Origin: Chloroflexi bacterium TSY
GTDB lineage: Bacteria; Chloroflexota; Anaerolineae; Caldilineales; Caldilineaceae
Direction of reading: 5' to 3'
NCBI GenBank assembly: GCA_019217005.1
Contig: JAHBNG010000040.1
Span: forward strand, 1 to 64,000
DNA length: 64,000 nt
The notes under the pieces are model-generated. The model made no database searches, was not told the DNA's origin, and saw nothing but the letters and a program-made list of their open reading frames with translations. This document shows positions 1 through 22,551 of this stretch, one piece after another. Position 1 is the stretch's first letter; each line of letters begins with the position of its first letter. A program made the translations under genes and the position numbers.

Positions 1-785
1 ACCGTGGCAGTGCTGATGCCTTCGCGCGCCAGTTCGCCATATTTGTGGTAGCTGTAGTAGTCGTCCTCATTTGGATAGGTAAATTGTGGATTTGGTTCAT
101 CCGTAGGCGGTTGTGGTGGATTGTCACGCTCAACTTGGGTGAGCACTTCGAATAGATAGAAGTAGTCGGGATTGAAATCCTTGTTCAGCGGGTTGCCGTT
201 GGGCAGCGTGCGCTTTGCCGCGGCGTCGATGTCGAGCTGACGCTGTCCCATGGCACCGTGGCAACTCAAGCAGGTGTTGATGAGCGCCTTCTGGTTTGCC
301 TCTAAGGTCCCGCTAATCAGATTGTTCTGATCCACTGACGCGCCTGGAAAGTTCAGCTCGTTGGCATTCTTGGCCAGGATGATCATCTCGCTTTCCAGTT
401 GGGCATGGAAGATGGGGGCACGGCCAGCCAATCCCATGGGTGACCGGCGCCATTCGCCATAGGGTGCCACGCTAAAGCTGTTGCCATACGCAGAGCCGGT
501 CTTGACGAACATGGTCACTGGGTAAAGCGACCCACTCAGTCCGCCATGACAGCCAATACAAGTAACCGAGGTGATAAATTCATCGGGGGACGTATTGGTT
601 TCGCCTGGGCCATCCCGTCCAGGAAAGACATGATCTGACCATTGAACTGGCAACGCCTGTACGCTGGTGCGCGACACAGGGGGATACGAAAGTCTGGTTT
701 GACCCTCCGGTGCCGTAAATTCCCTAAATGCCGCAACAAAAGCTGGATTGATCGATATACACCGCTTAGTGTTCTCTGTTTGCAC
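1..785 (-). CDS. di-haem cytochrome c-like protein, 3' end outside window
   Basis: The reading frame starts at a GTG preceded by a perfect AGGAGG six bases upstream, and an in-frame TAA lies just before it. It runs off the left edge after about 261 codons. Two covalent haem motifs are visible: CIGCH at residues 76-80 and CLSCHG near residue 174. No clear signal peptide follows this start, which is odd for a cytochrome c, so an upstream leader may have been lost. It is the most downstream visible member of the minus-strand oxidase cluster and would be a plausible electron acceptor for the copper and quinone oxidases. That role is inferred. The sequence resembles the cytochrome at the right edge of the window in having aromatic YGxW/S stretches near the haems. 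Class I fold and redox partner are unknown. Confidence 0.72.
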   Translation of the reverse strand, partial: MQTENTKRCISINPAFVAAFREFTAPEGQTRLSYPPVSRTSVQALPVQWSDHVFPGRDGPGETNTSPDEFITSVTCIGCHGGLSGSLYPVTMFVKTGSAYGNSFSVAPYGEWRRSPMGLAGRAPIFHAQLESEMIILAKNANELNFPGASVDQNNLISGTLEANQKALINTCLSCHGAMGQRQLDIDAAAKRTLPNGNPLNKDFNPDYFYLFEVLTQVERDNPPQPPTDEPNPQFTYPNEDDYYSYHKYGELAREGISTAT

Positions 786-1009
786 GTCATGCCTCCTCGT
801 GGTTTAAAACTGGAATCCGTTGGGCAAGCAAAGCAACCGTCGTGATGTTCGGCAAGCGAGTGGATGCTAAACAAATTTTGCGTCTACACAATGGCGGTCA
901 CTACATGTCGATTCGAGGATGGTCTTGTTTTACAGCAAAGGTCGACATGGACTGGCGCTGTTTTCGTGGAATTAAGAATTCAGTATACCGCTTTTCACTG
1001 TAGAGGTGT

Positions 1010-1072
1010 GTCGAACAAAGAGTGATCCATTCGTCGAACAAAGAGTGATCTTCTTGTCATTCTTTGTTCGAC
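1010..1072. repeat. direct repeat plus hairpin downstream of the regulator
   Basis: In the 311 bases between the cytochrome start and the regulator end, an 18-base unit GTCGAACAAAGAGTGATC occurs twice (1010-1027 and 1033-1050). The second copy pairs with CATTCTTTGTTCGAC at 1058-1072 to form a stem-loop. It could act as a transcription terminator for the regulator, though no strong U tract follows. A TATACT box on the minus strand near 982-987 may be a promoter for the cytochrome. Nothing else is seen in this gap. Confidence 0.5.
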
Positions 1073-1096
1073 AGGCAACAAAGACAATACAAGGTA

Positions 1097-1661
1097 TCAA
1101 TTGATCAACCGATGCTCCACCGCATAGCGCACAATCTCTGCACTGTTCTTCAAATGGAGCTTCTCCAAAATTCGCGTGCGGTAGGTGGCGATTGTGGTCT
1201 TGCCCAATCCCAAGATCTGTGCAGTTTCTGTTGGCGTCTTGCCGGCACCGAGCAGACACATCACTTGGAATTCCCGATCGGATAAGTTGCGGTGGCGCGG
1301 TTTGTCGTCTACGTACTGCTTCGATCACCTCTTCCGGCGGACTGGCTAGCATCAGGTAGCCGGATGCCCCGGCTTTGAGGACGCGCACGCCAAACTCTTT
1401 CTCGCTACAGATTCCCAGTACGAGAATAGGCGGGCAGAATTGAGCATGATGCAGGTCGGATATGAGGTTGAGTGTAGAGGAGTCGGATAAGACGACCTCC
1501 ACAATGAGAACCTGGCAGCGAGATGAGTGGATGTCCTGTAGCAGCGTGTGTGAGGGAGCGAACCTATCAACAATACAGAAATCGTTGGTAGCGTCCAGAA
1601 TTCGCATGAGTCCATGGCGCACAATGGGGCAACTGTCGGCAATCAACACGCGTATCATCAT
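1097..1661 (-). pseudogene. NarL/FixJ-type response regulator, frameshifted
   Basis: The N-terminal part reads as a CheY-like receiver (MMIRVLIADS...) and the C-terminal part as a LuxR/NarL helix-turn-helix (LSDREFQVMCLLGAGKT, then TYRTRILEKLHLKN), but they lie in different frames. The switch is near 1310-1325, just after EEVIEAVRR, where the linker expected between the two domains is also missing, so a deletion with frameshift is likely. The receiver is unusual. The acidic pair is D-S, the phosphoacceptor position in LIVEVVLSD is Glu instead of Asp, and the conserved Lys is absent (ASGYLMLAS). A Glu can mimic a phosphorylated Asp, so the intact ancestor may have been phosphorylation-independent. 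The start at 1661 has GGAG upstream. It lies between the oxidase cluster and the edge cytochrome. Confidence 0.75.
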
Positions 1662-1732
1662 GTTTCTCCGGCACCTGCTCAAAATACAACTATCGAGTAG
1701 TTAAGTTACAAATAATGGTCTGTCAACCAATA

Positions 1733-1796
1733 TCAGTAGACCGCAATCGTATCATTCTCGAGTGAAGCGAAGAATCTAACGATTGTGGTCTACTGA
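1733..1796. repeat. hairpin with 18-bp arms and conserved core
   Basis: Arms at 1733-1750 and 1779-1796 (TCAGTAGACCGCAATCGT and its near-complement) enclose a core reading ATTCTCGAGTGAAGCGAAG followed by AATCTA. The same core, with unrelated arms, recurs at 51697-51723. Located upstream of the response-regulator pseudogene. Confidence 0.6.
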
Positions 1797-1872
1797 ATTG
1801 CCCCTCTCGCTTGGCGATGTCCCAGAGTCTGCTTCGACGACAAATTGATTCTTTCGTTGATTGACATTGTTC

Positions 1873-1940: not shown

Positions 1941-2108
1941 CCTACCCAAATTGCTGATGAGGGTTGTGTGCTAAGGCTATTCTAGAAGGCTTGAATGTGA
2001 CTTGACCTAGTTCATGAAGAGAGAACATCCAATCAATCTCGTCAATCTATGGTTCGTTTAAAACTTGGATTGGTCTCATCTCAATTGCGGTAGTAGAGAC
2101 GATGAATT

Positions 2109-4502
2109 TTAACGTGTGACCTGCACTAATTTCGACTCGGATGAGGCCAAGGAAGGCAGTTCGCTCAGATACTCGAAATAGCGTTTCAAAATTTGCCGCT
2201 GTCCCGCCGAGAGCGTGCGCGTCACGGGCATGTAGCGGGCCGACTCAAATATATCTTGATCGATCACCTGCTCGATTCTCCCTCGCCATTGCTGGAATTT
2301 GAGAGGGCTGTTGATGAACTCCATAACGGGATACATCAGATGGTATGTTCGATAGACTTCATCAAAGACTCGATAATTAACTTCCTGAACATCAGGTCCA
2401 GGTTGTTCGCTGAGCCACTTGTCAAATTCCACGGCCATTGCGTTATGAAACGGCAGCACCCGCGCGGCGGTGTAAAAGAAGTAGCCATGTGCAGGTCCGA
2501 TCCCAAAAACAGAGTATTTTGATTTTTTGTCATGGCTAGTATACAAAATCGGAAGCGGGAGCCCATCGCCCGTTGCATCTGGGCCAATGGGATAAAATAC
2601 CAGGTTCGGCAAGCCCTGTTGCAGTGCTTTCGCTTTGATGGTAAGCCTTCCCGAGGCGGGAACCGGAATTTTCGTTGCGTTGTCAATTCGGCATAGCGCA
2701 TTGCCGTTCTGTTCATCTACATAGAATAGGTCCAATATGCTCGTTGATTCAGCCTTGGATTCAGACACTGCAATGAGTTTATCTGAGATGTCATATTGGG
2801 CAATCATTAGATGAGTATTGGGGGGAGGTTTCTGGCCATGTTTCCAAACTTTGACGCAGAATTCCGCAAACTCTTTACTTGGATCCCAAAGTGGATTGGG
2901 CTCATCAACGTATAGACCACGCAGGTCCGTTTCGGCGGTGAATGGACTTTCAACCAAAGCGACTTTATCCTCACCGTTGCAACATTTATCCTTACTATCG
3001 CAAGATTTATCGCATGGGGGGTAACTATGGACTTGAATGACCAGAGGATGCTCTTCTATCTGAGCGGCTGTAATTGTAACACCTGGAATAAAGTTAGAAC
3101 AGTCAATATCAATTACGCCTGCGGTCTTCTCATAACTGTTCTGATCATAATCGGCGTAAGAGAGTTCCGCGAAGTATAAGTAGTCATCCTCCGATAATTT
3201 GATGCCGATTTGAAGCGTCTCAAAGTACGCTTTCTTGCCCGAAGCATCATAGCGCGGGATGGTACTGCTTAAATCAAGTGTAACGCGCTGAACCTGTTCA
3301 CCCTCTGTCTGCACTTCAACCGCTGTCGGGCCGAGCGCAACGGAAGGTAATTTATCTCCCTTATACTCTTTTGGACACTTGGGCCTTACCTGAATCGGAC
3401 AGCTAAACGTTTCGGGCTTCTGAAACGGTATTAAATATCGTCCGCCAGGCGTGCTAACCAACTCACCATCTTCCCACAAACCAATCCAGCCCACGCAACG
3501 GCTGTATGCTCGATTGATGGGTGCCTTCGGCTCTTCGGCCAATCTACCCAGTTTGTAGGCTTCTAACTGTTCTTCATATTGCTGGTAAAGAAGGGCAATA
3601 CGATTCATGTAATCTGTGCGATTATCGCCACTTATCTGAGGTGTAGGAGATTGCGGATGCAATCCGGCAAATGCTTTTCCCTGAAAATAGAGGGTGTCGT
3701 AAACCGTCATCCGCAACATGAGCCCTTTGATGTTCGCCCAGTTTTGCAGCCTATTGCATAATTGCCCACATAGACTCGTTGAATCCGCGTCTGAATCAAA
3801 AAAGTCAATATGTTCAGTTTTGAAGCACGTCTGGAAGACCGCGGAATAATGACCTGCAATCATTAGATCCTGAGTGAGGTTGTAGTTGGCAGTATAAAAC
3901 CAGCGTGTGGACATCCGTTGTTGGACTTTTGCGTTGAAGCCATGCCCAAGTTCTTCTCTGCCTAAGGTGAATGTATCAGCAAAGATTTGCGTTGCCCAAG
4001 GAAGTTGGGGGTTGACATCAACCATTTTGGCGGGGACCATCTTCAAGTTCAGCTGTAACGCTAATCCTTTCCACGGATCATCCGTATGATATCCGTGGCA
4101 GTCGGTAAAACCAGTGACTGTGGTAAATGGTCGATTTGATGGTAAGCTAAAGTCTGGATTCTGAATTTTTGGGGTAACTTTCGACGGGTCCGTACGATCA
4201 TCCTGCGTGACAAAACCACATTGGTTGCCGCCATAATAATCCCACTCGGCTGGAGGCGTAGTGTAGTCACTGCCTGATGGCTTGTAGGGATCATTGTTGT
4301 TGGCCTCTGTGGGTTGAATCGCCCATTTTTTGAAATCAGCTGGCGTTTCTACACCTTGTTGATGTAAATACGGCCAGTTGAGCTTGGCTTGAGGAATATC
4401 GTAGGTGGGTAGGGCAGGTGCATAGTCGTTATTATTGAAAGTAGTCGGATTCCAATACATTTGCCCATTGAAATAGAGTCGAGGTAGTAACAAGACACTC
4501 AT
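2109..4502 (-). CDS. VioB N-terminal-domain-like protein
   Basis: A 797-residue protein with no signal peptide. From memory of VioB (iminophenyl-pyruvate dimer synthase of the violacein pathway), several parts look homologous: the opening MSVLLLPRLYFNGQ, a middle motif VGWIGLWEDGELVSTPGGR, and the end of the domain (EVNYRVFDEVYRTYHLMYPV, then ARYMPVTRTLSAGQRQILKR). In VioB this region is followed by a ferritin-like domain in the same chain. Here that domain is a separate gene just upstream. An oddity is a cysteine-rich insertion near residues 492-508 (CDKSCDSKDKCC). The start has AGGAGA at 4508-4513, directly beside the 8-bp duplication of a MITE-A, so the element sits in the leader. The likely role is one half of an imine-dimerising or related oxidative enzyme; substrate unknown. 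Confidence 0.68.
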   Translation of the reverse strand: MSVLLLPRLYFNGQMYWNPTTFNNNDYAPALPTYDIPQAKLNWPYLHQQGVETPADFKKWAIQPTEANNNDPYKPSGSDYTTPPAEWDYYGGNQCGFVTQDDRTDPSKVTPKIQNPDFSLPSNRPFTTVTGFTDCHGYHTDDPWKGLALQLNLKMVPAKMVDVNPQLPWATQIFADTFTLGREELGHGFNAKVQQRMSTRWFYTANYNLTQDLMIAGHYSAVFQTCFKTEHIDFFDSDADSTSLCGQLCNRLQNWANIKGLMLRMTVYDTLYFQGKAFAGLHPQSPTPQISGDNRTDYMNRIALLYQQYEEQLEAYKLGRLAEEPKAPINRAYSRCVGWIGLWEDGELVSTPGGRYLIPFQKPETFSCPIQVRPKCPKEYKGDKLPSVALGPTAVEVQTEGEQVQRVTLDLSSTIPRYDASGKKAYFETLQIGIKLSEDDYLYFAELSYADYDQNSYEKTAGVIDIDCSNFIPGVTITAAQIEEHPLVIQVHSYPPCDKSCDSKDKCCNGEDKVALVESPFTAETDLRGLYVDEPNPLWDPSKEFAEFCVKVWKHGQKPPPNTHLMIAQYDISDKLIAVSESKAESTSILDLFYVDEQNGNALCRIDNATKIPVPASGRLTIKAKALQQGLPNLVFYPIGPDATGDGLPLPILYTSHDKKSKYSVFGIGPAHGYFFYTAARVLPFHNAMAVEFDKWLSEQPGPDVQEVNYRVFDEVYRTYHLMYPVMEFINSPLKFQQWRGRIEQVIDQDIFESARYMPVTRTLSAGQRQILKRYFEYLSELPSLASSESKLVQVTR

Positions 4503-4522: not shown

Positions 4523-4677
4523 GGGGTGGTTCAGAATTAGGTTTACACTTTTGATACATAGACAAAAATCTATATGAGGTCATTTTCTGCCTGAGCATGG
4601 CTCAAATTAGAAAATATAAACATCTTTTCTCTTTGCAAAAATGTAAACCTAATTGTCCGCCTAAAATGAACCACCCC
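4523..4677 (+). mobile_element. MITE-A copy 1 (subtype A1)
   Basis: 155 bp with 11-bp terminal inverted repeats GGGGTGGTTCA and a subterminal repeat around TTAGGTTTACA. Perfect 8-bp target duplication TATACTTT at 4515-4522 and 4678-4685. No coding capacity. It separates the two VioB-like genes and lies 20 bases upstream of the start codon of the downstream one. Confidence 0.92.
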
Positions 4678-4699
4678 TATACTTTCGCTGGAAAGTCGC

Positions 4700-5707
4700 T
4701 TATCGAGCGGTTGCCGGAATATATTCAAACGTCGGGCCAGGTAAAAACTCAGTCCAAGGAACATAGCCATAATTGTGACGTAACACGCCGGCCAATTGGC
4801 CTAATTCATCCATGTAGGTTGTTGCGGTCTTCTGCTGCTCTAAATGGCTATCAAACAGGGGATATTTCGGAAATACACCTGGTTGTTCGCTGGTCAATGT
4901 GGTCTGTAGACTATCCAGAAGTTCACTATAGACCAGATTAAATTGTTTGTTTGCTGCTTGCTGGTCGGGAGAATAAACAATATCCGCTGGGTTGGAAATG
5001 ACTGGATAGACATCCTGAGTTAGATGGAGAGAGCCATTCTCAATCGCTGTCTTTATCTCCATAAACTTCCAATAGTGGGCCAGTTCATGGTTGCCATCAT
5101 CATGCGTCTCTGAGGAAGTTCCCTCGCCTTGGTCTACAATCAGTTTTAGTGCCCTGATGGCATCACATTGCGACTCGACTGGAATCAAGCGACCAGCTCC
5201 AGGGTTATCAAATTCTGGTAACTGTCTACCATGGTTAAAAGGGCCTGCGTAATCGGTGATTTTTGATTCAACCGATTCATAAAACTGACCAATCGTCGCC
5301 CAGCCAGATGAAGGTGGGTCTGGGACATCTGATTCCGGCAACTCAATTTTTAGGAAAGTGTCAATGGCAGTGCTGGACAGCGGTAAGAGGCCAACCTCCA
5401 CCCCATACTTGCCGGTTGAGTGTCTTAGAAGCTGACCAGGATAACTTGGCACATAGAGAGGATCTGTAATGGTCGCACGCCCTCCCAACGCATTTAGAAT
5501 ATTGGCGACTAATCCCATGTGGAGCATCTCTTCCAGAGCCACAGACATGATTGTCCTTGCCGCTTGAACACCCGCTTGCGAATCGCCATCTTCAAGCGGC
5601 CGAATTGACCAATAGGTATAAAGATAGGGAGGCATGGTGGTTAGCTCAACCGACATAGCCGCTCGTAGATCCTCTTGCAATGATGAGAAATCATTGGGTT
5701 GACTCAT
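4700..5707 (-). CDS. ferritin-like protein, VioB C-terminal-domain type
   Basis: 335 residues from the ATG at 5707, chosen because AAAGGAG lies just upstream; the longer open frame begins in non-coding sequence. The fold is a ferritin-like bundle as in the C-terminal half of VioB/RebD. Glu21 lies in SVELTTMPPYLYTYWSI, and EEMLHMGL (residues 59-66) gives the E-x2-H motif. A later pair of likely ligands is in ELAHYWKFMEI near residue 208. Such domains bind a di-metal or single iron centre. Its neighbour downstream matches the other half of VioB, so the two probably form one complex encoded by two genes in swapped order. An ISL3 remnant sits immediately upstream and may have removed the native promoter. 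Substrate unknown. Confidence 0.72.
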   Translation of the reverse strand: MSQPNDFSSLQEDLRAAMSVELTTMPPYLYTYWSIRPLEDGDSQAGVQAARTIMSVALEEMLHMGLVANILNALGGRATITDPLYVPSYPGQLLRHSTGKYGVEVGLLPLSSTAIDTFLKIELPESDVPDPPSSGWATIGQFYESVESKITDYAGPFNHGRQLPEFDNPGAGRLIPVESQCDAIRALKLIVDQGEGTSSETHDDGNHELAHYWKFMEIKTAIENGSLHLTQDVYPVISNPADIVYSPDQQAANKQFNLVYSELLDSLQTTLTSEQPGVFPKYPLFDSHLEQQKTATTYMDELGQLAGVLRHNYGYVPWTEFLPGPTFEYIPATAR

Positions 5708-5913: not shown

Positions 5914-7188
5914 ATGACTTCATCAATAACGGTACCGCTAGATATCCCAGAAGTGGAAGTGTTAAGCAGCGAAATCACGTCTGAAAATCATTTATTGATT
6001 CGGGTAGAAAGCACCCAAAAAAACAACAGCATGTGGTGTATGCGGAGTTGAGATTGCGTGTACATTTGGCCATGGTCAAGAAATTAGCTTGCGCCATCTC
6101 CCAGTTTTTTGGGCTTGAGACCTACATCTTGATACGGCCCAAACGGGGTCAATGTTTGTCGTGTCATTGTGACCCAACAACGACTCAAATTGTGAGTTGG
6201 TATGAACAAAGAAGTCCTCATACACAAGCGTATGATGAATACCTGGTCATGCAACTAATCAACAGTACAATCGAAGATGTAAGCCTCAAAGAAGAAGTTG
6301 GGTACGATGCAGTCGTAGGCGCATTGAACCGTCTGATAGAGCCCAAAATCAACTGGGATGAAATCGACGAAATCGGTACGTTGGGGATTGACGAAATCTC
6401 CAGAAGTAAGGGGCGCAAGAAATTTAGTGCGATCATTACAGCTCGTCAACCCAAGGGCAAGGTACGGATTCTTGGAGTTCTCCCCTGATCGAAAAAAAAG
6501 ACGGTTAAGGCATTCCTAGAAGAGATTCCTGAGAGACTACGCCCCACCATCAACTATTGCACCACCGACATGTGGGAGGGCTATATCAATGCGATTGATG
6601 AATTTATCAATGAGAATGATGATGTGAATGCATCTCCTGTTGTTGACCGATTTCATGTTGCTCAGAACTATCGAGATGACTTTGACGACCTCCGAAAAAA
6701 GGAACTCAGACGCTTGAAAAAAGAACTGCCTCCTGAAACTTATGACCAAGATTGCAAAGGAATGCTCTGGATCTTACGCAAAAAATCACTCGGCTCTCAA
6801 TCCTGAAGAGCGGCAGGAGCTTAGACGTTTGTTTGCTCATTCACCAGCCCTTCATCAGGCCTATACCTTTCGAGAAGAATTGACCGCCATCTTCAACCAG
6901 GAACTCTCTGTTGCCCAAGCTGAACATCGCCTTGAGGCTTGGATTCGCAAAGTTGAACGTTCCTCCCTTGATAACTTTGATGGCTTTATCAAAACCCTGC
7001 GCAACCACTGGCAATCCATTGTCAACTATTTTGACCAACGCATCAACAGTGGTTTTGTTGAAGGTCTCAATAACAAGATTAAGGTCATCACTCGTCGATG
7101 CTATGGCATTCGCAATGTCTCTTCTCTTTTTCAACGTATTTGGCTCGATCTCCATGGCAAAGAACGTTTTTCCCTGTCAACCACATGA
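5914..7188 (+). pseudogene. ISL3-family transposase, degraded
   Basis: The protein can be read only by joining four frames. The segments are MTSSITVPLDIPEVEVL (start 5914), FGLETYILIRPKRGQC with a Cys-rich zinc-binding remnant, LGIDEISRSKGRKK (first DDE Asp), then TDMWEGYINAI and VVDRFHVAQNYR, and finally NSGFVEGLNNKIKV and RRCYGIRNVSSLFQRI near the C terminus. Breaks lie near 6040, 6486 (CTCCCCTGATCG) and 6780. The order and motifs match ISL3 transposases. The element faces opposite to the surrounding oxidase genes and is dead. Confidence 0.85.
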
Positions 7189-7339
7189 GATCCTGATCAG
7201 CCATAAATTTTTAAACGCCTTGACTTTCATTGATGTCAGTTAACCTCGCCTCGAGAGGTTATCGCAAGAACCAAAACACAGTCGCCATGACTATCACCTA
7301 CCCCAAGATCCACATTACGCTATTGAAATGAACAGCCCC
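7189..7339 (+). mobile_element. right end of the ISL3-type element
   Basis: Non-coding tail after the transposase. The outer end probably reads GAAATGAACAGCCCC (7325-7339), because the neighbouring ferritin-gene remnant stops matching exactly there. On the other strand this gives GGGGCTGTTCATTTC, close to the MITE-A end GGGGTGGTTCATTTT. A matching left end was not found between 5708 and 5913, where I see only AT-rich sequence and no gene. Confidence 0.45.
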
Positions 7340-7443
7340 ATGTGTAGCATCTCCTCTAGCGCCGCAGACAGAATGAGCCTGGCCGCGTGCGTCGGCACCC
7401 GCCAGAGAACCACCATTCTGCAGGGTTCAGTAAGTAAAACCAA
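7337..7443 (-). pseudogene. fragment of a second ferritin-like (VioB-C type) gene
   Basis: On the minus strand this stretch encodes GFTY-stop-TLQNGGSLAGA, then after a frame change PTHAARLILSAALEEMLHMGL. The second part aligns with residues 46-66 of the intact ferritin-like gene at 4700-5707, including the E-x2-H metal motif. Both ends are lost, the left one at the ISL3 junction. It shows that the cluster once held two such genes. Confidence 0.6.
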
Positions 7444-7496: not shown

Positions 7497-7651
7497 GGGG
7501 TGGTTCATTTTAGCTGGATAGATAGGTTTACACTTTTAGAAACAGAAAGAACGTTTATATTCTCTGATTTCGCCGGTTCTCAGAGAGAAAACGGTCTCAT
7601 ATAGATTTTTGTCTATATATCAAAAGTGTAAACCTAATTTTGAACCACCCC
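7497..7651 (+). mobile_element. MITE-A copy 2 (subtype A2)
   Basis: 155 bp with GGGGTGGTTCA ends and a distinct interior (CTGATTTCGCCGGTTCTCAG) shared with the copies at 39586 and 44651. Perfect 8-bp duplication ATAAATAC at 7489-7496 and 7652-7659. Inserted near the 3' end of the haem lipoprotein gene. Confidence 0.92.
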
Positions 7652-8337
7652 ATAAATACTTCATCCTTTCGTATGTCGTTGAGATCACCTGTGTCTTTAG
7701 GTCCACTTCTGTTTGCGGGATTATGAAAATGAGTTAATTCTACGTCATTTCCCCCATGGCAAGGTTGACAACTTTGCAGAGCTCCAGCTATCTTCGGATC
7801 TTTAGAGGAGTCCTTATTAGAAATCCAGCTACACTTTCCCTTTTTGTAATAGACCCATCCCGTTTTTGTTTTCACTTGAGCACTTAGATCGGTTGCTTTA
7901 GGACTGAATGGACTAAATTGAAATGAAGCTGGTCCAGCTTTCGATAATACCGTGAAACCATCAGACCCGTTGATATCAGCTACCGGAATTTGCGCTAAAA
8001 TGAACTTCGTTCCAACGGTAAATGAACCTGTGCTTGTAAGTGTTAGATACGAATCTGGATCCATGTAGGTTGTTCGTAAATAGATCGTTGGTGGTGGACT
8101 CACTGGTCCCGAGATTATCTCAAGTTCATATATCGTACCGAGATTGACCCATTCTGTTTCATAGTTAGCGGTTTCAGTTATAGTAAGCGTCGTCGCTTGT
8201 TTATCCGAGGCTCTCTCCATCTGGCAGTCATCGGCCGCAATTTGGTTAAAATCAGTTGGCAGATTCACACAGCTGATAAGCCCCGCTCCCAGAATGACCG
8301 GAAATAGTAAGATACTAATCCTCTTAAAGCGTGTCAT
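7597..8337 (-). CDS. mono-haem lipoprotein, C terminus replaced by MITE sequence
   Basis: The start at 8337 follows AAGGAG. A lipoprotein signal is clear: MTRFKRISILLFPVILGAG ending in the lipobox LISC, so Cys23 would be lipidated and the protein held on the outer face of the membrane. One haem motif, CQPCHGG, lies near residue 194. The rest is a beta-rich region with no recognised domain. A MITE-A insertion replaces the native end. The present protein finishes with GWFKIRFTLLIYRQKSI encoded by the element, whereas the pre-insertion frame ran on past the target site as SVFPKLKRYYKE and stopped at 7449. Its place between the multicopper oxidase and the VioB-like genes suggests an electron-transfer role in the same pathway. 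Confidence 0.7.
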   Translation of the reverse strand: MTRFKRISILLFPVILGAGLISCVNLPTDFNQIAADDCQMERASDKQATTLTITETANYETEWVNLGTIYELEIISGPVSPPPTIYLRTTYMDPDSYLTLTSTGSFTVGTKFILAQIPVADINGSDGFTVLSKAGPASFQFSPFSPKATDLSAQVKTKTGWVYYKKGKCSWISNKDSSKDPKIAGALQSCQPCHGGNDVELTHFHNPANRSGPKDTGDLNDIRKDEVFMGWFKIRFTLLIYRQKSI

Positions 8338-8543: not shown

Positions 8544-8567
8544 AGCCGCCTGACGCGTCAGGCGGCT
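8544..8567. terminator. perfect 24-bp palindrome after the multicopper oxidase
   Basis: AGCCGCCTGACG followed by its exact complement CGTCAGGCGGCT, in the 255 bases between the multicopper oxidase stop and the lipoprotein start. GC-rich stem without loop or strong U tract; a likely terminator or processing hairpin. The same GCCGCCTG/CAGGCGGC stem occurs at 18964-18994. The rest of the gap shows nothing clear. Confidence 0.5.
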
Positions 8568-11307: not shown

Positions 11308-11481
11308 GGTTACTTGTTCCTCTAGAAGTTGAAAAACTGCAATAAAAGAACCGAAATTTTTTTGGCAGAAATAGTTCCGCCATTGTTGCATAAACACCTC
11401 CTCCACAGCTTCTCTATAGGACGTACGCAGCCCCTCGACTTCAATACGGCAAAAAACTGCCTACTCAGCCAGCGAACTGCG

Positions 11482-12591: not shown

Positions 12592-12633
12592 TTCATTCAC
12601 AATTCATCATCCACAATTCACCATTCATCAGGG

Positions 12634-13056
12634 TTACCGTCTTTGCTTCACCGCATACCAAGAGGCAACAACGCCAGCCGGATGCACCGTCCCGTCGCCA
12701 CCGGAGTGAGGGATAACACGTACAATCGAGCCAACAATGGCGGGACGCTGATCAACACCGTTAGGCCATTCATTCACGAAGTAGCCAAGATAGGCATAGA
12801 TCCATTCTTCACCGTTGACGACACCCTTTCCTTGAAATCGGAGCGTAAAGGGATCGCCATAGTTAACAGATCCAGTGAGGGTTAATTGCCATCCTTCTCC
12901 ATAGATCAAGCCCTTTAAGGTCTGTAAGGGGGCTTCGTCAATTCGGAGATTGCCTCGTCCAAATTCGAGCTTATCAAAGTCGATATTGAGATCTGGTTGA
13001 TTATTGAAACTACGGTAAGTCCACAAACCCTGTAGAACTTCAGGCATATTATTCAT
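12634..13056 (-). CDS. small protein between LodA and LodB genes, unrecognised
   Basis: 140 residues starting at 13056, one base after the LodA stop codon (TAATATG), so the two are translationally linked. The sequence is rich in alternating Gly/aromatic residues (QGLWTYRSFNNQPD, EGWQLTLTGSV, EEWIYAYLGYFVNEWP), which suggests a small beta-barrel. I do not recognise a family. No signal peptide. Its position inside the LodA-LodB unit suggests a helper in cofactor maturation or substrate binding. That is inference only. Confidence 0.6.
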   Translation of the reverse strand: MNNMPEVLQGLWTYRSFNNQPDLNIDFDKLEFGRGNLRIDEAPLQTLKGLIYGEGWQLTLTGSVNYGDPFTLRFQGKGVVNGEEWIYAYLGYFVNEWPNGVDQRPAIVGSIVRVIPHSGGDGTVHPAGVVASWYAVKQRR

Positions 13057-13057: not shown

Positions 13058-15466
13058 TTATGCTCCTTCTTTGGTGTTACCCAGAAGCAGGTCACCGGGC
13101 GAGACGGACGGTCCCAACGCCTGATCATTGCGTTCGACCTGAATGAAGCCCCACTTCGGATCGGAAAAGTATTTGATGAATCCCAAGTCTTTCCAGGCCG
13201 TGACCATGCGTAAGCCGCCAGCGTTGTTTTGCGGCACACCTGAATCCCAATACACTGGCGCTTTGCCAGAGGGCTTGCCATCCGGCCCTTTCAGTCCGTT
13301 ATTGACCACCAACGGACGATGAGCAGGCCACCAGATCAGATAGACCGTCTGCTCTTTGGCAGGATCGCCAACACTGTCGAGATAAATATCGTTCCAGTTT
13401 TCATACGTCACGTCAACCGGTTGGAGCGCACATTGGGTGAAGTCAGACTGCCAGGGCAAGCCCAGATACTTGGTCAAGTCACCCGGTTCAAGCCCTTCGG
13501 ACAGATCTGAAGCCGGGCTGTGATCTTGATCGGCAATGACTTTCGGCAAACTCAAGGCCCCCACTTGATAGGTGGCGTGCTTAATGCGATATGGTTCATA
13601 AAAGTTGGCTGGGTTTAACACATTCCAGGACAGTTCTGCCCCGGGGCAGAACGCGCCACCAACCACATTCCCCAATACGCCGCGATCCAGTTCCAGACCT
13701 GTTTTCGGCGGTGCCTTAAATGGGGTTTTGCAGTTCTCATCAGCTTCACCCCACTCTTGACACTCATTGACAAATTTGCCCGCTGCCCATTGTTTCAGCA
13801 GGAACAATTGGGTATCTGTCAAGCGCAGAAATTTTTGTGGTACGGTGTTGGTCAGTGGGTTATTGCCACAGAGCAAAGGCATCAAGCGAGGTCGATAATT
13901 CGGATTGTCTTCGTTAAGTACATCGCTGACAAGCTGATTTTCTTGTCCCGGGGTTTTGGGGTGGTTCATTTTAGGCGGACAATTAGGTTTACATTTTTGC
14001 AAAGAGAAAAGATGTTTATATTTTCTACTTTGAGCCATGCTCAGGCAGAAAATGACCTCATATAGATTTTTATCTATGTATCAAAAGTGTAAACCTAATT
14101 CTGAACCACCCCCCGGTTTTCGCAAAATATTGTAGATAAACGCGCGCTTTTGGCGGTTTATGTCGTCGCTTTGGCCGTGTTGCGGCGGGACAGACATCAC
14201 ATCTTCGTCCAGGTTTCCCTCGGTCCCGGTATTATGTGGCACGCCACCTTCAAATGGATCAAATCCATAGACCGCTGTATAGGTATCTGGACGCTTTAAA
14301 ACAGGCCAGATTTCTTTATAAAACTTGGGATAGTAATTCGGATTCCATTGTGCTTCTGAATGCCATAGACGCCATTCGGTCTCGGTTTTGGGTGAGTTGC
14401 TGGCATTGTCGAACGGGGGAACGCCATAGACTTGGGGATCAAAGGCAAATTTTCGTACGAATAGATCATACAACGCCTCATCCATTGTGATCATATCCAC
14501 CAATTCTGGCGCATAACGGGGATAACCGATGACAACCCAAGCAGGAACATCAATCTCCGCGTATCCCGTCCGTTTTCTGTATTGTTCTTCATCGATGGTG
14601 ATGATCTCTTCTATCTTAATATTATCAATCGTGACTTCGCCAGATATCTCTGCTTCCCCGACTTTAATCTTCTGATAATACTCATACTTGATGCGAGCAG
14701 TGATTGGCCCATCGGAAATATCGTCAAACCATCCTGCGCTATTGGCATACCCGGTAATCAGCGGTGGGTTTGTGGAGCCAGAATTGCCATGCCCACCAAG
14801 GACAATCAGGCGAATAGAGTCATCTTGACAGTTGACCTTTACTTCACCCAAGGTGGTAATCGAGTTCGGGGCGATATCTGGCGGTGGAAACGTTTGTGGG
14901 TAACCGGGATTGTCACCTTTGGCAAAGGTTTTGTGACGTGCTTCGGGCTCTGTGTAAGATACTGTTTGAGGGCCGGGGTCAATAATGAGCTGGCGACGAG
15001 CATCGGGTTGCTTGACATGAGGCTCACGTAGGGGGTGCTTCGACGGCTCTTCGTAACCATGCATCCCTTGCAATTGCATAAACTGATACCATGACGACTT
15101 CTTGTTTGCCAGATGAACCGTCCACTCTATGTCTATGACTGTGCCCTCGACATTGAACCGCCCAGTGGTCGATGTTTCGGCTTGGAAGGGAAACGTTTCA
15201 CCCACGGTAATCTCATGTCCGGCTTCATCATCTTCATCACGATAAGCGAACACCCGAAAACGTGCAGCCTGTTGCTTCACGCGCTGCGAAGAGTCCTTAA
15301 AGGTTGTATCCGCTATTTCATTTCCCTGATCATCGAGTTTTGCCCGCCCTTCGCCATCACAGGCAATGGGTAGTTGCCCTGGCTGCTCTGGGGATAGATA
15401 AAAGTCACTTTCGCTATCACCCAACCGTGCGATGCCAATGGCGGGATGAATCTTGAAAATTGCCAT
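13058..15466 (-). pseudogene. LodA-type CTQ amino-acid oxidase, split by a MITE
   Basis: The N-terminal half (15466 to 14113, start MAIFKIHPAIGIARLGDSE with AGGAG upstream) and C-terminal half (13957 to 13058) form one LodA-like quinoprotein interrupted by MITE-A. Joining LRKP to GQENQLVSDVL across the insertion gives a continuous family-like sequence. The C-terminal half keeps RLMPLLCGNNPL, then KFLRLTDTQLFLLKQW. It also keeps both expected CTQ residues: the Cys of PWQSDFTQCAL and the Trp of IWWPAHRP. LodA enzymes oxidise the amino group of lysine, glycine or other amino acids with release of ammonia and H2O2. In this strain the chain ends inside the MITE, so no quinoprotein is expected unless the two halves associate. 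The gene follows the tyrosinase gene after a strong hairpin. Confidence 0.85.
13958..14112 (-). mobile_element. MITE-A copy 3 (A1) inside the LodA gene
   Basis: 155 bp with GGGGTGGTTCA ends. The flanking 8-mers are imperfect (GGGGTTTT on the left, CCGGTTTT on the right). The reading frame suggests an original duplication of CCGGTTTT with two extra bases gained on the left side. Confidence 0.9.
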
Positions 15467-15488
15467 AATTTTCTCCTGGCTATACTCA

Positions 15489-15546
15489 CCCAGAAAAGTT
15501 TTGTCCCGTCTGAACTCAGGAAAACGAGGGACAAAACTTTTCTGGG
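15489..15546. terminator. 19-bp perfect stem between tyrosinase and LodA genes
   Basis: CCCAGAAAAGTTTTGTCCC (15489-15507) pairs perfectly with 15528-15546 around a 20-base loop. It begins 15 bases after the tyrosinase stop and ends 23 bases before the LodA start. It could lower LodA expression relative to tyrosinase, or protect processed mRNA ends. It has no U tract. Confidence 0.55.
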
Positions 15547-16394
15547 AAACTATATGTGAAATTAGTCCATGAAATTCAATGAGACGCCATCAAAATAGAG
15601 TGCTTCGTTTGTGGGTGTGCCGTCGATGTCGACAGCGACCAGATGCACGCTGATGTCATCTTCGCCCTTGGCAATCATGCGCCGGACCGCGTCAGTGGCA
15701 TCAATCCGGAAATTGCGAGGTTCATTATGGTGAAGGGGGCGCAGGTCGAAACGACGGGTACGCGGAAAGGGCACATCACAGTGTCCCGGTCCACCGATAC
15801 AGAGGCCACCAAATGTTCTTAGCTGACCGACATAATGATCATTATTGACGGTGGCTGTATCTGCATTCGCCTCTGGGGCATTGAGAAAGACGCGAATGGC
15901 AGCATTGCGCCTGGCTTTCTGAACGCAGTGCAGGCGCACTTCAACTTTACGATGCCTATCCAGAACCGCGGATCGAACTTGTGCCTTTTCGGAATTAAAG
16001 CAGATCATGGGCATGTCATTCACTGTGGGGTAGAAGTACGTATCTTTCATATATTCATAGCCCAACTTCTTAATGCTCAAGGTATCCTTAACTGACAATG
16101 GCCAAGGGGGAAGTGGGGCCTCGACATCTTCTGGATTAATTCCAGGATTCTGTTCTTGCCAAACGGCCCATAAGCGATCTACATTGCAATGGTGGGACCA
16201 GAAAATCGGATCAAAGGCGGTGACGCGGTTGTCGGTCATATCGCCCAGGCGTGGGTTATCCTTGCTTTGCTCATTACTGTCTGGAACATATTCTGGATTT
16301 TTCCCGCCGGCAAAGTTATGCATACCGTAAGGCCAATCCAAAAAATAAAATATACGCGAGAAGGTGTTAAACTAGCTCTCCAAAAGGAGCAAAA

Positions 16395-17354
16395 ATGACA
16401 ATCTCGCCAGAAATGGTTGAAGTCTTGAAAGAGACGAAGGCCATGTTAAGTGGATACGAAAGAAGGCACTTCATGGCCCAAACGGTCAAAACGATATGCG
16501 AAGGGAGTCCGACGAAAGCAGAACGAGAGTTGGGCTGGAATCGGGCGACGATAGCCAAAGCCCTGGAAGAACTAGAAGGCGGCTTCTGTTATGTCGACCA
16601 AAGCCACCGACGTGGTCGCAAAAAAGCCGAAGACCATATCCCCACTTTACTGGCCGATATGCTTGAAATCGCCGATCAATTCAGCCAGACCGATCCCACC
16701 TTTCGACCCCCCCCAATTGTACACTCGACTAACCGCCGCCGAAATGCGTACCCAGCTCATCGAGCAGAAAGGATACACAGATGAGGAATTGCCTGGCGAA
16801 GAGGCCATCCGCTTGAAGCTCAATGAGTTAGGCTATGGCTCAAACCGGGTCAAAAAAAGTCAACCAGTGAAAAAAGATCCCAGAGACCGATGCGATCTTT
16901 GATAGAATTCATCAGATCAATCAAGAAGCGGATGCAGACGAGACGGTTCTGCGCCTCTCTTGGGATGCCAAAGCGACGATTTTACTTGACCGTTTCTCGA
17001 GAGAAGGGATAAGTCGAGTGGTTGTCAAAGCGCTCGATCATGACTTTCAAGATAAGAAGACCGAGAAAGTCACTCCTTTTGGCATTTACCTCCCTTCAAC
17101 CAAGGAACTCTTTCTTTACTTGACTCAGTCGAAAGTGACGAGTGACTGTATTGTCGACTGCCTGATTGATTTTTGGGAAAGCGTACGTGAACACTTTCCT
17201 CACGTCAAGACCCTCGTGATCAATCAGGACAATGGTCCCGAAAATCATACCCGTCGGACTCAGTTTATGTATCGTCTCACTCAGTTTGTTGAGCACTATC
17301 GTCTCTCTATTCAGCTCGCCTGCTACCCTCCTTATCACAGTAAATACAACCCCG
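16395..17354 (+). pseudogene. ISAzo13-type transposase, frameshifted and truncated
   Basis: Starts MTISPEMVEVLKETKAML with an upstream GGAG, continues through LGWNRATIAKALEELEGG, and changes frame near 16720 and 16885. It ends with the DDE region LVINQDNGPENHTRRTQFM and ACYPPYHSKYNP, after which the host tyrosinase frame resumes. The normal C terminus (after KYNP) is missing. These motifs fit the ISAzo13 group. Exact element ends cannot be set; the left end is near 16345. It lies opposite to the tyrosinase gene. Confidence 0.75.
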
Positions 17355-17599
17355 AGAATGGCTGTAATATCATCTGGCGTCGGATAGTGTGTCGGTGAAT
17401 TGGCGACACCCGGCCAGCGGTTCATATGCCACAGCGGGTTGATTCGAAGCAGTTGCTCATATATTGCCTGCACTTTTTCCGAATATTTGTAATCCGGCGG
17501 GCTGCTGCGCTCAATCAGATCAACCTCATACTGAATGCTCGCGCCAGTGAGGAAACGGAGGCCAGAATTGTAGGTGATCCCGAACGTGTTTTCCAGACC

Positions 17600-17814
17600 C
17601 AGTAGATCCAAATTTGGCGTTTTTGGCGATTTTCAGTCGAGATTGCAGGGATTTTGGAGTCATTTATTCAGATTTCGGTTACAGAAAACAACCTATTTCA
17701 TATCTGAAAATCGCCCAAATCTAACGCAAAAACTAGATATCGACCGGCAAATTTGTATTTATGTCAACTGTTTAGCCAGAATTCTCTCTCAAAACCTGAA
17801 ATTTGGATCTACTG
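17600..17814. mobile_element. MITE-B copy 1 inside the tyrosinase gene
   Basis: 215 bp with perfect 16-bp terminal inverted repeats CAGTAGATCCAAATTT and a 5-bp target duplication AGACC (17595-17599, 17815-17819). Removing the element plus one duplication restores EISGLENTFG in the tyrosinase frame. Confidence 0.92.
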
Positions 17815-18963
17815 AGACCAGAAATTTCCTCATCGCTGAAAAGCGGCTGCCCATTGGCTTGTTTTTTGTCCTTCAAACAGGCCACCCCATCAGCATCAAT
17901 CCAACAGCGGAATGCTTCCGGTATGAAGCCTTGATCAAGGATGGTGGTCTCATAGGTCTGACGATTGAGGTCGGCATAGAGCGACCATTCCCAGTAGGGT
18001 AGGGTGATATGAGGGTCGTAATCCTGAAGTTGCTGTTCAAAATGATAGAGATAGAGCCGGTGCCAGGGTAAAAATTGCTCCCATCCATGCTGGCAGGAGT
18101 TGGCATGAATGCGCCCCCAATAACCGAAACTACGATCATCGAGCCAATAGTCATCATACTGATACATGCAGTGGATGGCGGCACGCAAGCGACTTAACTC
18201 CTCGTGATTCAAGCTGCTCACCTCCTTGCGCACTCTCATGCCCGAAACATCATCGCGGATGGCGTTAACGTGCTTATTTGAAGTGGTATGCAGCGCATCC
18301 CCATAAGCCCGAGCCATGATCAGATCCGTGCTGACGACAATTTGGGCCTGAGCTTCATCTGATGTTGTTTGACCACTTGCCGAGGCTGCTGGTTCATCAC
18401 TCGTTGGGCAGCCATCGTCAATCCAGGCAGCAATGAAGGCGATGTTCGAGGCAGAGACCTTTTGAGCTGTTGGCCCCCATAGCAAGGGCGGAAACATGGA
18501 ATCATCAAACGGATATTCGCCCTTTAGACCCTGAATCAAGCCGGAACGATCGCTGGGTTTTTCGCCCGATCCAGGTGAGGGACCTCGGCGCGATGTTGTG
18601 GGCCAGCAGTTTGGTTCACCGCTGCCGGTTGAGGATGCTGGTCCGCAGTGTGAGCAGTGGCTCTCGGCGCCAGATGCAGCCTTACCTGTCGTTTGATGGA
18701 GATTGGCGTCGATCATGCGCTGTCCATAAATCGTCACCATTCTAAATTCCTCAATCTCTAGCAGCCAGAACGCACGATAGCCCTGATAGTCCGGGACGTG
18801 ATCTCCTTGCGCCTCATTGAGGATTTGTTTGACACGCTCGTAGCGCGACAAGGGGATGTTTTCTTGCCTATCCGTCATCTTGTCTCCTTTCCTGAATTGT
18901 TTCAAGAGATGACACAGTTTTTGTAGCAAATTGACTTTAAATGCAGTAGGTAATCACTGTCGG

Positions 18964-18994
18964 AAAGCCGCCTGGCTAATAATCAGGCGGCTTT
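18964..18994. terminator. hairpin between cytochrome and tyrosinase genes
   Basis: AAAGCCGCCTG pairs with CAGGCGGCTTT around a 9-base loop, in the spacer after the cytochrome stop at 19101. Read leftwards it ends with TTT, fitting a weak intrinsic terminator. Confidence 0.55.
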
Positions 18995-20195
18995 ATGGTG
19001 TTTGGGCAACTCAGATATAAGATATATCCTGAGGTAAATAACGGTTAGTGAAAAATGCTCGTCTATCCAAGCCACGTTCAAACACCAGCTCGAAAAGCAC
19101 CTACTTTTTCGGCGGCATCGCCTGACAGGCATCCTCAGACGTATTACTGGGATTGTCCCAACACGCTTTTTGTTGGAGCAGCCAACTGAAATCACCACTT
19201 AGCTGGCCATTAAATACAGGTCGTTTGGTCCCATCGGTATCAATTGTAGACCCTCTGGCAATACCGGCTGAAGAGTGACAACCCATACAGCTCTCGGTGG
19301 CAAAGATAATGTTATCATCGCCTGAAATCGTCAACGTTTGCGTAGTTATCTGGCCATGGACGATGAGCGAATTCGTGCCAAAACTGAGAACGGAACTCAG
19401 TGGTGTGGTTATACCCTCTTCTTGACCATCTGCACCTTGGTTGCCCGCTTGAAAATAGGTTTCCATGGTCGAGTTTGTTAGGTAGACAGGATATGCCCGT
19501 CCCCCCGCTTTGTTATTAATACTGTCGATGGGCGGTGTGACCAACGTCGTTGTGTAAGGCAGTTGAGGAGACAGATCATCAACGCCATTGATCTGTGGTG
19601 TTGAGGGCGCAACGTTAGGTTTGGTAGGCCATTGTGTACCAATGAGTTCATAATATTGCCAAACCGAGCCCTCGGCTCCAAGTATTTCTTGCGCTATCCG
19701 GTTCAATTCAGCTGTTTGTTTGTCAATAGGAATAGGACGAGTAACTTGTGTTCTTAATTTGCTATCTGCGTCTGGCACAGGTGGAATATTGACCGGACAG
19801 TGTGGACAAACTGGATCATAAAACGAGGGAGTCAAGGAGACTTCATTTCCAAGGAAATCTGTTCCCGTAATCAAGCTATTTACCTGAAGGTTATCGACAT
19901 GCTCAAAGGTTCCCCAAATCCATTGAGGGGCGTTTTCTGTTTTATGGGCAATGTGCATACCTACCAACCCTACCGTTTCCTCAGTACATTGACCCGTAAA
20001 ATCACCATGCTTATCAAACTGTGGAAATAAGGCCTGCTCAGTAAAAAATCGTTCTGGGATGTCACCTTTGCCCATTACCTTCCATGACAGCTTGAGTTCT
20101 ATCGCCCCAATTTGGGGTTCTGTATTAGCACTCCCAACCGTACCTTCCGGAAAAGCGATAGTATTAGTAAAAGCAATTTGTCCATCTAGGTTAAA

Positions 20196-21585
20196 CTTTA
20201 CTTTCTGGTAAAAGAAAAGAGATGAGGTGAGAAATGTGACAAAAAGCGGTTAGCAGTTCATCCTAAAGGTAGAGAACCCAAAAAGGAGGAAGGAATGCTA
20301 ACCGCGCCAGAAATAACTATAGCAGTACTGATGAATGTATTGCAAGTAACGCCGATGGGAACAAACGTAAATGTAATGCGTCTGATGTGGGCAATGCTGA
20401 ATGGGTCGTTTCTGAAAAGTCGAGGAGCAATCCATAGCGCATTGAAAGAAAGCGGGTTTGAAGATGAGGAGCTCCGGCGAAGCTGGTGGAGCTTTCGATA
20501 TGGATCATGGGATATCACAAGTCTGCTGGGGTCGTGGCAAGAAGAAGTGGAAAGGGGAATGGGAGGCAAAAAAGTTAGAAGGGTACCGAGTGAAAAGCAT
20601 AGATATCACAGGGTTCTGGCGACCGAAGCTGCAAGGGAAAGTGAACCGACTCTATAACTCAACGGCTCGTCGGGCATTGCCCGCGCGCTCATCTTTGGAG
20701 TGATGATAAGCTCGGGGGGAGATAGGCGGGAAGCGAGTGCCACTGCTCAAGGCAATCATGAGATGCACGGTTGGAACAAAGGAAAGTGAGTTTCGGAAAA
20801 AGCTGCTGACAGAGACGAAGAAATCACTGGAGTCAGACGAAGTGGCGGTGGTCGATGCCGGGTTTACAATCAGAGAAATGCTAGAAAGCGGCATAGACCG
20901 ATTTGTCCTGCGGGAAGCGACTCGAGGCTACAACTCCGGACTCGTCTGGTCGCTTTCTCTATAGTGGTCGCCTGATTTGCTATCAAGCATGGCACAATCT
21001 CGTCCCCAGAACAACCAAGGTGGATACAGCCAACCGTACCTACTCGATTTACGTCATTCAGGATCCGGCCTACAACACACCTTTGGTTTTGGCGACCGTT
21101 ATGACTTTGCAGCCTGAAACCATTTATCTTGTCTACCTGGAACGCTGGCCTGTTGAACCTCCCCCCTTGGCTTCCAAGCAGATGATTGGCTTACATCGTC
21201 AATTTGTTCATGCCGATGAGGCTTGTTTCCGCTTACCTGAACTGGGGCTGCTGGCTGGCAATCTTCTTTCCCATTTAGCCGCTTCTCTTCCTCCCATACC
21301 GACTGGCTACTGGGATCGAGCCTCAATCCACTCCCGGCAGGCTGCGCCGTGTTCTCTCGAGTGCTCTTTTTCCAACTCCTGACCAACTCGACCCTGACTT
21401 TCGGAAAAAGGCCTCGGTTTCACACCATTTACCTAAAGGCGTTCTCGCTCATCGCCGCCTCAATGCCGCTGCTTAAACTAGCCGAGCACTATTTTTACAT
21501 TTTATCCCGTTTTTTCAGGGTGGATTCTTTTTTCCGCCCCTTTCGGTTTGCCCTTTGTCACTCAAGCCTTTACCAGAAAGTAAAG
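20196..21585 (+). mobile_element. DDE insertion sequence, copy 1 (internally deleted)
   Basis: Ends with inverted repeats starting CTTTACTTTCTGGTAAA. Target duplication imperfect: TTAAA on the left, TTATA on the right. The transposase reading begins MLTAPEITIAVLMNVLQV at 20295 and shows VDAGFTIREML and YLERWPVEPPPLASKQMIG as DDE-type motifs. Compared with copy 2 (40636-42141) it lacks a 5-base repeat near 20550 and about 110 bases after FVLREA near 20920. I cannot place it in a named IS family. Confidence 0.85.
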
Positions 21586-21691
21586 TTATATAACTTATTA
21601 TCAACAATATAGTCATACTCTTCTCTATTCATCAGAATTTCATAGCGTACTTCAACACCATTCTGATCCCACAATGGTCCCTTGAAAGCCT

Positions 21692-21906
21692 CAGTAGATC
21701 CAAATTTGGCGTTTTTGGCTATTTTCAGTCGAGATTGCAGGGATTTTGGAGTCATTTATTCAGATTTCGGTTACAGAAAACAACCTATTTCATATCTGAA
21801 AATCGCCCAAATCTAACGCAAAAACTAGATATCGACCGGCAAATTTGTATTTATGTCAACTGTTTAGCCAGAATTCTCTCTCAAAACCTGAAATTTGGAT
21901 CTACTG
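21692..21906. mobile_element. MITE-B copy 2 inside the cytochrome gene
   Basis: 215 bp, same 16-bp ends CAGTAGATCCAAATTT, 5-bp duplication AGCCT at 21687-21691 and 21907-21911. Confidence 0.92.
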
Positions 21907-22551
21907 AGCCTGCTTAACCTCATCTAATACATCTGCTTTATTGGCTAGATAGAGAATTCTCTGAGTGTTACTAAGCTTATTATTGTCGCAAATGTAGTTG
22001 GGAATATCAGAATGCCCCCACGGGGAAGGAACTGATCCATCTTCTTTGAACACCTCAAAACTTTCCTTCCATGTCTGCCATCGAGGTGTACCGTCAGCTG
22101 TGAGATTCGGCAAAGGATTACCGTCCTCATCTAAAGGCCAATTCATTGCGATAAACGTCAGCCAGGAGTTCGTATCAAAGGCGCGTTGCGCTGTTGCTAA
22201 TGAGTTTACTCCTGTCAAATCTACATCGTAGGGAATGGTGGAAGTAAACACTAGTGTAGCGTCTGATGTGTGGCTATCTGCATTTGGATGGAAATCATGT
22301 TCAGCATGGGTGATCGTATTGTTTTGTAATAGATAGACCCCAATCAGTGTAAGTAGAATTAACGCCAGAACCAGTTCACGTTGATAAGCTTTTTTCTTGC
22401 TCATTTCTTCAATTCTCCCATCAAGTTGCGTTGAAATATTTATCTAAGGCCATCGAAAAATAAGTACGACGTAGGAACATCCGCTTACCGATTTTCTGAT
22501 GGGCAATGGCAAGGGCATGCCCTTTCTGCCTCTGGAAAAAATTTATAAACT

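Follow-up and report, generated by a model that had tools for sequence, protein, structure and literature searches.

Which enzyme system is encoded by a dense block of redox genes at one end of a contig from Chloroflexi bacterium TSY, and do these genes belong to one pathway? The window analyzed here is the whole stretch of 64,000 nucleotides (assembly GCA_019217005.1, contig JAHBNG010000040.1, positions 1 to 64,000 of the forward strand). A preliminary description of this DNA, made without database searches, had placed in positions 1-22404 a LodA-type cysteine tryptophylquinone (CTQ) oxidase with its flavin maturase LodB, a tyrosinase, a multicopper oxidase (MCO) with a twin-arginine translocation (Tat) signal, two proteins resembling the halves of the violacein enzyme VioB and three haem proteins. 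Profile searches confirmed all of these, and all of them lie on the minus strand within 1-22404. We consider it likely that the block is the decayed remains of two neighboring redox modules. The first would be a group ID lodA operon (tyrosinase, LodA, small protein, LodB, MCO) with the haem protein gene haemC upstream, and the second a two-gene form of a VioB-like enzyme, the ferritin-like FerL followed by VioB-N.

The LodA module matches published group ID operons

Transcribed from 22404 to 2109, the genes run haemC, tyrosinase, LodA, small protein, LodB, MCO, haemB, FerL and VioB-N; beyond VioB-N, toward the window edge, a response-regulator-like frame and then haemA follow. haemC and the LodA module consist of the following pieces, in which MITE-A and MITE-B are two miniature inverted-repeat transposable elements (MITEs), IS stands for insertion sequence and L-numbers denote loci from other genomes.

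21909-22404, minus strand: haemC N-terminal part, hydrophobic N-terminus, probably exported
21687-21908, no strand: MITE-A in haemC, 5-bp flanking duplication
21582-21692, minus strand: haemC middle part
20205-21590, plus strand: IS-like insertion in haemC, present again at 40634-42132 with 99% identity over two aligned stretches
19101-20216, minus strand: haemC C-terminal part with CxxCH
17817-18881, minus strand: tyrosinase N-terminal part including an N-terminal extension
17595-17816, no strand: MITE-A in the tyrosinase gene, 5-bp flanking duplication
17346-17594, minus strand: tyrosinase middle part, aligning with residues 379-452 of the L024 tyrosinase
16366-17345, plus strand: insertion in the tyrosinase gene, ends approximate
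15565-16366, minus strand: tyrosinase C-terminal part
14113-15466, minus strand: LodA N-terminal part (profile search, tree)
13953-14112, no strand: MITE-B within lodA, carrying an in-frame stop
13061-13952, minus strand: LodA C-terminal part with the cofactor Cys and Trp (profile search, alignment)
12634-13056, minus strand: small group ID protein, 140 amino acids, open, 64% identical to the L024 small gene
11482-12600, minus strand: LodB-like flavoprotein (CTQ maturase), open
8593-11406, minus strand: MCO, Tat signal, open, four copper motifs (profile search, alignment)

The LodA pieces match LodA_N (PF17990, E 4e-57) and LodA_C (PF18417, E 1.6e-40), and the Cys and Trp named as cofactor residues of the LodA family in section 7 of PMC4417212 are kept (GGAFCPG and WWPAHRP in alignment A2). 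Against the lysine 6-oxidase model NF038172 the two LodA fragments score 202.8 and 134 bits, below the cut-off of 600. LodB reaches 332.5 bits with NF038171, below the cut-off of 400, and the tyrosinase matches PF00264 in two pieces.

According to the account of group ID lodA operons in Campillo-Brocal et al. 2015 (PMC4417212), these carry a small gene of 138-142 amino acids between lodA and lodB together with genes for a tyrosinase and an MCO. The window holds a 140-amino-acid gene in just this place, and by gene position its tyrosinase and MCO genes are both present, adjacent and on the same strand. For comparison, ten LodA loci from eight genomes were collected (L023, L024, L025, L026, L027, L030, L031, L035, L039 and L040). 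Alignment A2 at E<=1e-80 gave matches in 1/396, 1/397, 2/369 and 1/289 genomes of four sets, and PF17990 in 3/14, 1/198 and 1/20 genomes, the last being the L031 genome again; the genomes of L023 and L025-L027 had first been reached through their VioB-N genes. In a LodA tree of 27 rows, the window N-terminal part clusters with operons of this kind: it shares a clade of 17 rows with L024 and L030 (support 99/100). L035 and L017 fall outside this clade and inside the next fork (100/99), with L035 and L031 on long branches. The tree held no reference sequences of the 2015 groups, and the grouping is one with loci of group ID gene order.

Four of the collected loci carry intact genes in a comparable arrangement: tyrosinase, lodA, small gene, lodB and haemC in L024; MCO, tyrosinase, lodA, small gene and lodB in L030 and L035; and tyrosinase, lodA and lodB in L023. 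Order and content of the window module agree with these loci and with published group ID, the MCO being last in the window and first in L030 and L035. The core of the block thus corresponds in gene content to published group ID and, because it is the same combination, is not new. What differs is that the window copy is broken by insertions, with haemC before it and haemB and the FerL-VioB-N pair after it. The earlier idea of an undescribed combination was therefore mostly mistaken: besides the group ID core, fungal lodA/lodB loci are known to carry a gene for a ferritin-like PF12902 protein (PMC4417212, Fig. 1C legend). VioB is unmentioned in the main text of that paper. It was also the only result of a full-text literature search for LodA-like proteins with tyrosinase and multicopper oxidase, and a further full-text search found no paper joining VioB, LodA and tyrosinase.

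Two hairpins had been considered as operon boundaries, one at 18964-18994 after haemC and one at 8544-8567 after the MCO gene. Folding of these stretches shows both to be stable (z -4.2 and -3.5). This candidate is weakened, since a T run is missing after both of them on the minus strand, and the terminator scan lists 18964-18994 on the plus strand only. Consensus terminators in the region are not above chance (16 found against 19.5 expected from shuffles), and promoter-like sites number 29 against 27.1 in shuffles. Our weighting of the explanations is unchanged by this, because it rests on the comparison of loci. Between tyrosinase and lodA, positions 15481-15554 form a 74-nt near-perfect palindrome (z -5.7 for the stretch folded) with no second copy in the window.

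Mobile elements have broken lodA, tyrosinase and haemC

One correction to the preliminary description concerns the state of the genes. LodB, the small gene, MCO, FerL and VioB-N are open; lodA, tyrosinase and haemC are broken, and the 3' end of haemB is cut, by MITE- or IS-like insertions. Compared to intact homologues, lodA, tyrosinase and haemC show collinear pieces on both sides of the insertions. lodA is interrupted by the 160-nt element with its in-frame stop, and larger insertions lie in tyrosinase (~16366-17345), in haemC (20205-21590) and between haemB and FerL.

The 64-kb window contains five copies of MITE-A (222 nt), four full and one split, and ten of MITE-B (160 nt), the latter at 4523-4682, 7497-7652, 13953-14112, 29381-29535, 31933-32090, 39586-39740, 44648-44805, 51506-51660, 51854-52012 and 58671-58829. 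Compared with the copy in lodA, seven MITE-B copies are 98-100% identical and three 81-82%; one is nested in a MITE-A copy (39462-39841). The search at E 1e-5 also returned seven reverse matches of ~70% overlapping the listed copies, which were excluded from the count. The insertions that broke lodA, tyrosinase and haemC appear to be recent, given that the window contains nearly identical copies at other places. With lodA and tyrosinase interrupted, the organism as sequenced could not make a whole LodA or tyrosinase.

Frameshifts from sequencing errors were rejected as the main cause of the broken genes, as the genes are broken where insertions lie, and short duplications flank the MITE sites. 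Of the five MITE sites inspected, four have exact duplications (5 bp for MITE-A, 8 bp for MITE-B), and the lodA site agrees at 6/8 bases; this evidence covers the MITE sites. Elsewhere in the window, the second IS-like copy (40634-42132) splits a gene at 40025-42789; both parts of this gene match the P450 protein at 43238-44404.

FerL and VioB-N are distant two-gene homologues of VioB

Between the MCO gene and the window edge, and just upstream of haemC, the following features were identified.

22552-23211, minus strand: VTT-domain membrane protein, with homologues near VioB-N in L002 and L007
7653-8337, minus strand: haemB, single CxxCH, lipobox-like N-terminus, MITE-B in place of its 3' end
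7497-7652, no strand: MITE-B copy, 81% identical to the one in lodA, truncating haemB at its 3' end and flanked by an 8-bp duplication
7321-7437, minus strand: candidate remnant of a second FerL gene, weak (sequence comparison, E 0.003)
6010-7260, plus strand: insertion with transposase-like open frames, boundaries approximate (frames, locus comparison)
4700-5707, minus strand: FerL, ferritin-like PF12902 protein, homologue of the VioB C-terminal half
4523-4682, no strand: MITE-B copy separating FerL and VioB-N, 8-bp flanking duplication (repeat search, site inspection)
2109-4502, minus strand: VioB-N, 797 amino acids, open, stand-alone homologue of the VioB N-terminal half
3-785, minus strand: haemA, two CxxCH motifs, truncated by the window edge (motif and frame evidence)

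haemA, haemB and haemC are the three CxxCH proteins of the block. haemA gave no Pfam family above cut-off and no BLAST match to haemC relatives. At the right window edge (63164-64000) lies another protein with two CxxCH motifs and no Pfam match. FerL probably starts at the internal Met at 5707, a position placed by comparison with relatives; in profile searches the protein was also counted as 408 amino acids.

FerL in its 408-amino-acid form matches PF12902 at E 8e-50 (170.2 bits against a gathering cut-off of 22.3), and its conserved Glu/His positions are kept in an alignment of nine proteins; 3hl1 is a solved relative (E 5.5e-9). Homology to VioB, the iminophenyl-pyruvate dimer synthase modeled by TIGR04492, is detectable over both halves at E ~1e-6. 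FerL matches model positions 664-852 (E 8e-7) and VioB-N positions 256-293 (E 2.4e-6), where no single stretch passes alone. Within the family of the 797-amino-acid protein, 22/27 members match TIGR04492 at E<=0.01 (best 1.9e-12). Five of eight further VioB-like proteins also match the model, the three without a match being those of L012, L013 and L019. A profile of the VioB-N family aligns with the N-terminal half of the fused VioB-like protein of Symploca (L002) with an hhalign probability of 98.6. The preliminary description had left room for the two proteins being unrelated to VioB; since the homology of both holds, this objection falls away. The scores of 25.6 and 27.2 bits, spread over two genes, stay far under the equivalog cut-off of 1250 for one chain, and because of this gap we regard FerL and VioB-N as distant homologues of the VioB halves and not as VioB itself.

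A single scan of the species genomes in GTDB, made with the VioB-N alignment (A1) and two peptide patterns, yielded 14 VioB-N loci, several on short contigs (L001 5.3 kb, L014 6.7 kb, L008 7.9 kb). FerL is a separate neighboring gene in five of them (L001, L002, L005, L006, L010), is fused in the same frame as VioB-N in two (L012, L014) and was not detected in the other seven. The order FerL then VioB-N is shared by the window, L001 (OFTM376, a Saprospiraceae metagenome-assembled genome) and L002 (Symploca sp. SIO1C2), the window proteins being 53% (FerL) and 46% (VioB-N) identical to those of L002; FerL comes second in L005, L006 and L010. In the fused VioB-like proteins of L002, L012 and L014, the PF12902 domain lies in the C-terminal half, as a counterpart to the window FerL. 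A second correction concerns the 'split VioB' of the preliminary description, which is a native two-gene arrangement with the gene for the C-terminal half in first place. That one VioB gene was split by an insertion was rejected: MITE-B does separate the genes at 4523-4682, yet the relatives have the same two genes with the C-half first.

A sequence search of the PDB with VioB-N gave no convincing match, and neither did a fold search with its predicted model (predicted local distance difference test, pLDDT, 82.6; predicted template modeling score, pTM, 0.86), in which mostly the immunoglobulin-like middle domain (~518-687) was covered. Scans of viral contigs with the VioB-N (A1) and LodA (A2) alignments found no relative. 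Among plasmids, one VioB-N match was found, in Gloeothece, and none for LodA (query P0037, E<=1e-60). VioB-N (A1, E<=1e-40) occurs in 1/291 cyanobacterial-class genomes, the Symploca genome itself, and most close relatives come from a metagenome collection.

Four gene types recur beside VioB-N in several phyla (L002 6900-8111 and 13062-14429; L004 15295-17795; L006 2434-6083; L019 10578-12882): a dehydroquinate-synthase-like protein, a TatD-like protein, a nucleotide pyrophosphatase and an unnamed shared family. They resemble what we take to be the ebo cluster. In the ebo cluster paper PMC6282210, a term search for cytochrome, VioB, ferritin, tyrosinase and violacein gave no occurrence. In four Bacteroidota loci, a family of ~480-490 amino acids lies directly downstream of divergent VioB-N (L007 10310-11752, L008 3487-4953, L009 10240-11718, L011 10242-11705), and the one member scanned has no Pfam match.

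haemC is a candidate haem partner of LodA operons

Aligned with the haem protein of L024, the pieces of haemC keep the same order (best E 4.6e-54); the family has no Pfam model. Statements on haemC in other loci rest on a query with the N-terminal part and on frame-correct comparisons. The nearest known candidate fold for haemC is that of cytochrome P460 and cytochrome c'-beta; these showed no sequence match to haemC, which is ~4x longer. A haemC homologue lies directly upstream of VioB-N in L004 and L013 (2/14) and in L019, the Gloeothece plasmid.

Source-contig sizes were compared between the best 119 of 2953 LodA homologues and the best 120 of 385 haemC homologues, the haemC query being the L024 protein. 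Twelve sizes are equal, where 0.43 are expected by chance, and 2000 trials gave at most 4; only the longest contig is listed per homologue, so pairs can be missed. The coincidence concerns close LodA homologues. It suggests that haemC belongs to a recurrent, unnamed family of c-type haem partners of LodA operons. New here is the apparent link of the haemC family to close LodA homologues, together with its place upstream of VioB-N in three other bacteria.

One pathway or two neighbors

Among the loci examined, LodA beside VioB-N was seen in this window only. In the flanks covered, LodA, tyrosinase and MCO have matches in 0/14 VioB-N loci, including the Symploca and Saprospiraceae pairs that share both genes and their order (L001 with its 5.3 kb only), and VioB-N was found in 0/10 LodA loci. 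Three of the 14 VioB-N genomes do hold a LodA gene, on other contigs, and among 34 VioB-N clusters no source-contig size is shared with the LodA or haemC lists. Together with the 10 MITE-B and 5 MITE-A copies in 64 kb, these data speak for two unrelated modules that became neighbors in an eroding region full of repeats and share no function, to which we give somewhat less than an even chance. What such a plain neighborhood explains poorly is that parts of both modules combine elsewhere: the haemC family occurs with LodA (L024 and the contig-size test) and upstream of VioB-N (L004, L013, L019), and in the bacterial locus L031 a PF12902 protein (E 2.2e-36) directly precedes LodA, followed by LodB. 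The family of the VioB C-terminal half thus meets LodA outside this window, in one of the ten LodA loci read. Such a bacterium with ferritin-like, LodA and LodB genes in a row is new and mirrors the fungal loci of PMC4417212 (Fig. 1C legend); it differs from the window in having no VioB-N and a LodA outside the group ID clade of the tree. That both window modules served one pathway seems to us possible but doubtful.

The preliminary description had gone further, with LodA taking the place of VioA, FerL and VioB-N dimerizing the imine, and tyrosinase and MCO turning the dimer into a pigment-like product. Its expectation that relatives carry LodA and VioB-like genes together was borne out for the C-half homologue (L031) and failed, in the loci examined, for the N-terminal half. 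LodA-family enzymes oxidize amino groups, as the account in PMC4417212 has it, both halves are homologous to VioB and FerL sits directly upstream of LodA-LodB in L031; against this pathway stand the ~26 bits where TIGR04492 demands 1250 and the pairing of VioB-N with LodA in this window only. We judge it distinctly unlikely. Unlikely, too, is a related scheme in which LodA and an exported, P460-like c-type haem protein would feed a two-protein VioB-type coupling by FerL and VioB-N and the copper oxidases would finish the product. Such a scheme would follow the logic of violacein synthesis, except that a quinoprotein takes the role of the flavoprotein. Taken as a whole, the preliminary description is partly supported.

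As for what two neighboring modules would do, gene content, order of the LodA module, native FerL/VioB-N pairing and insertions were observed, and the chemistry is read from the protein families. LodB, perhaps with the help of the small protein, would form the tryptophylquinone cofactor of LodA. LodA would deaminate an amino compound, probably not lysine, and may pass the electrons to O2 or to a haem partner (haemC), and tyrosinase and MCO would turn phenolic groups into quinones by oxidation. FerL is probably a di-metal enzyme and may act together with VioB-N on an oxidized amino-acid-like substrate. MITE-A, MITE-B and IS-like insertions would later have broken lodA, tyrosinase and haemC and cut haemB.

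Alternatively, the LodA module might make extracellular H2O2 and quinones for defense, biofilm or the cross-linking of surfaces, with FerL, VioB-N and the haem proteins handling peroxide or metal. The Tat signal of the MCO fits this proposal, as do the antimicrobial oxidases among LodA-family proteins of group IA (PMC4417212, section 9) and the fusion of some LodA-like proteins to catalase-like or iron redox domains (section 7). Against it, section 9 of the same paper knew of no oxidase activity in group ID as of 2015 and gave lysine oxidase as undetected in Saccharophagus. We consider the proposal unlikely.

Several points weigh against reading the block as two modules with the chemistry outlined above. 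The chemical steps come from family membership, and haemC as a potential electron acceptor of LodA is suggested by gene proximity only. haemC is present in one of four group ID loci read (L024), and equal contig sizes are an indirect sign of one shared contig. The small gene and MCO were not detected in L023, nor MCO in L024. FerL and VioB-N lie beside LodA in no relative examined, and in the window haemB and an insertion separate the two modules.

Implications for LodA and VioB-like enzymes

The function of group ID LodA operons was open in 2015, and our literature search found no later answer. A recurrent haem partner makes the question concrete: does the quinoprotein reduce a haem protein rather than O2? 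Ferritin-like proteins are linked to LodA in fungi and one bacterium, and several phyla have the VioB-like pair as two genes. Together these observations suggest that VioB-type chemistry may reach beyond the indole pathways known so far. As a relic, the window matters mainly as a pointer to its intact relatives.

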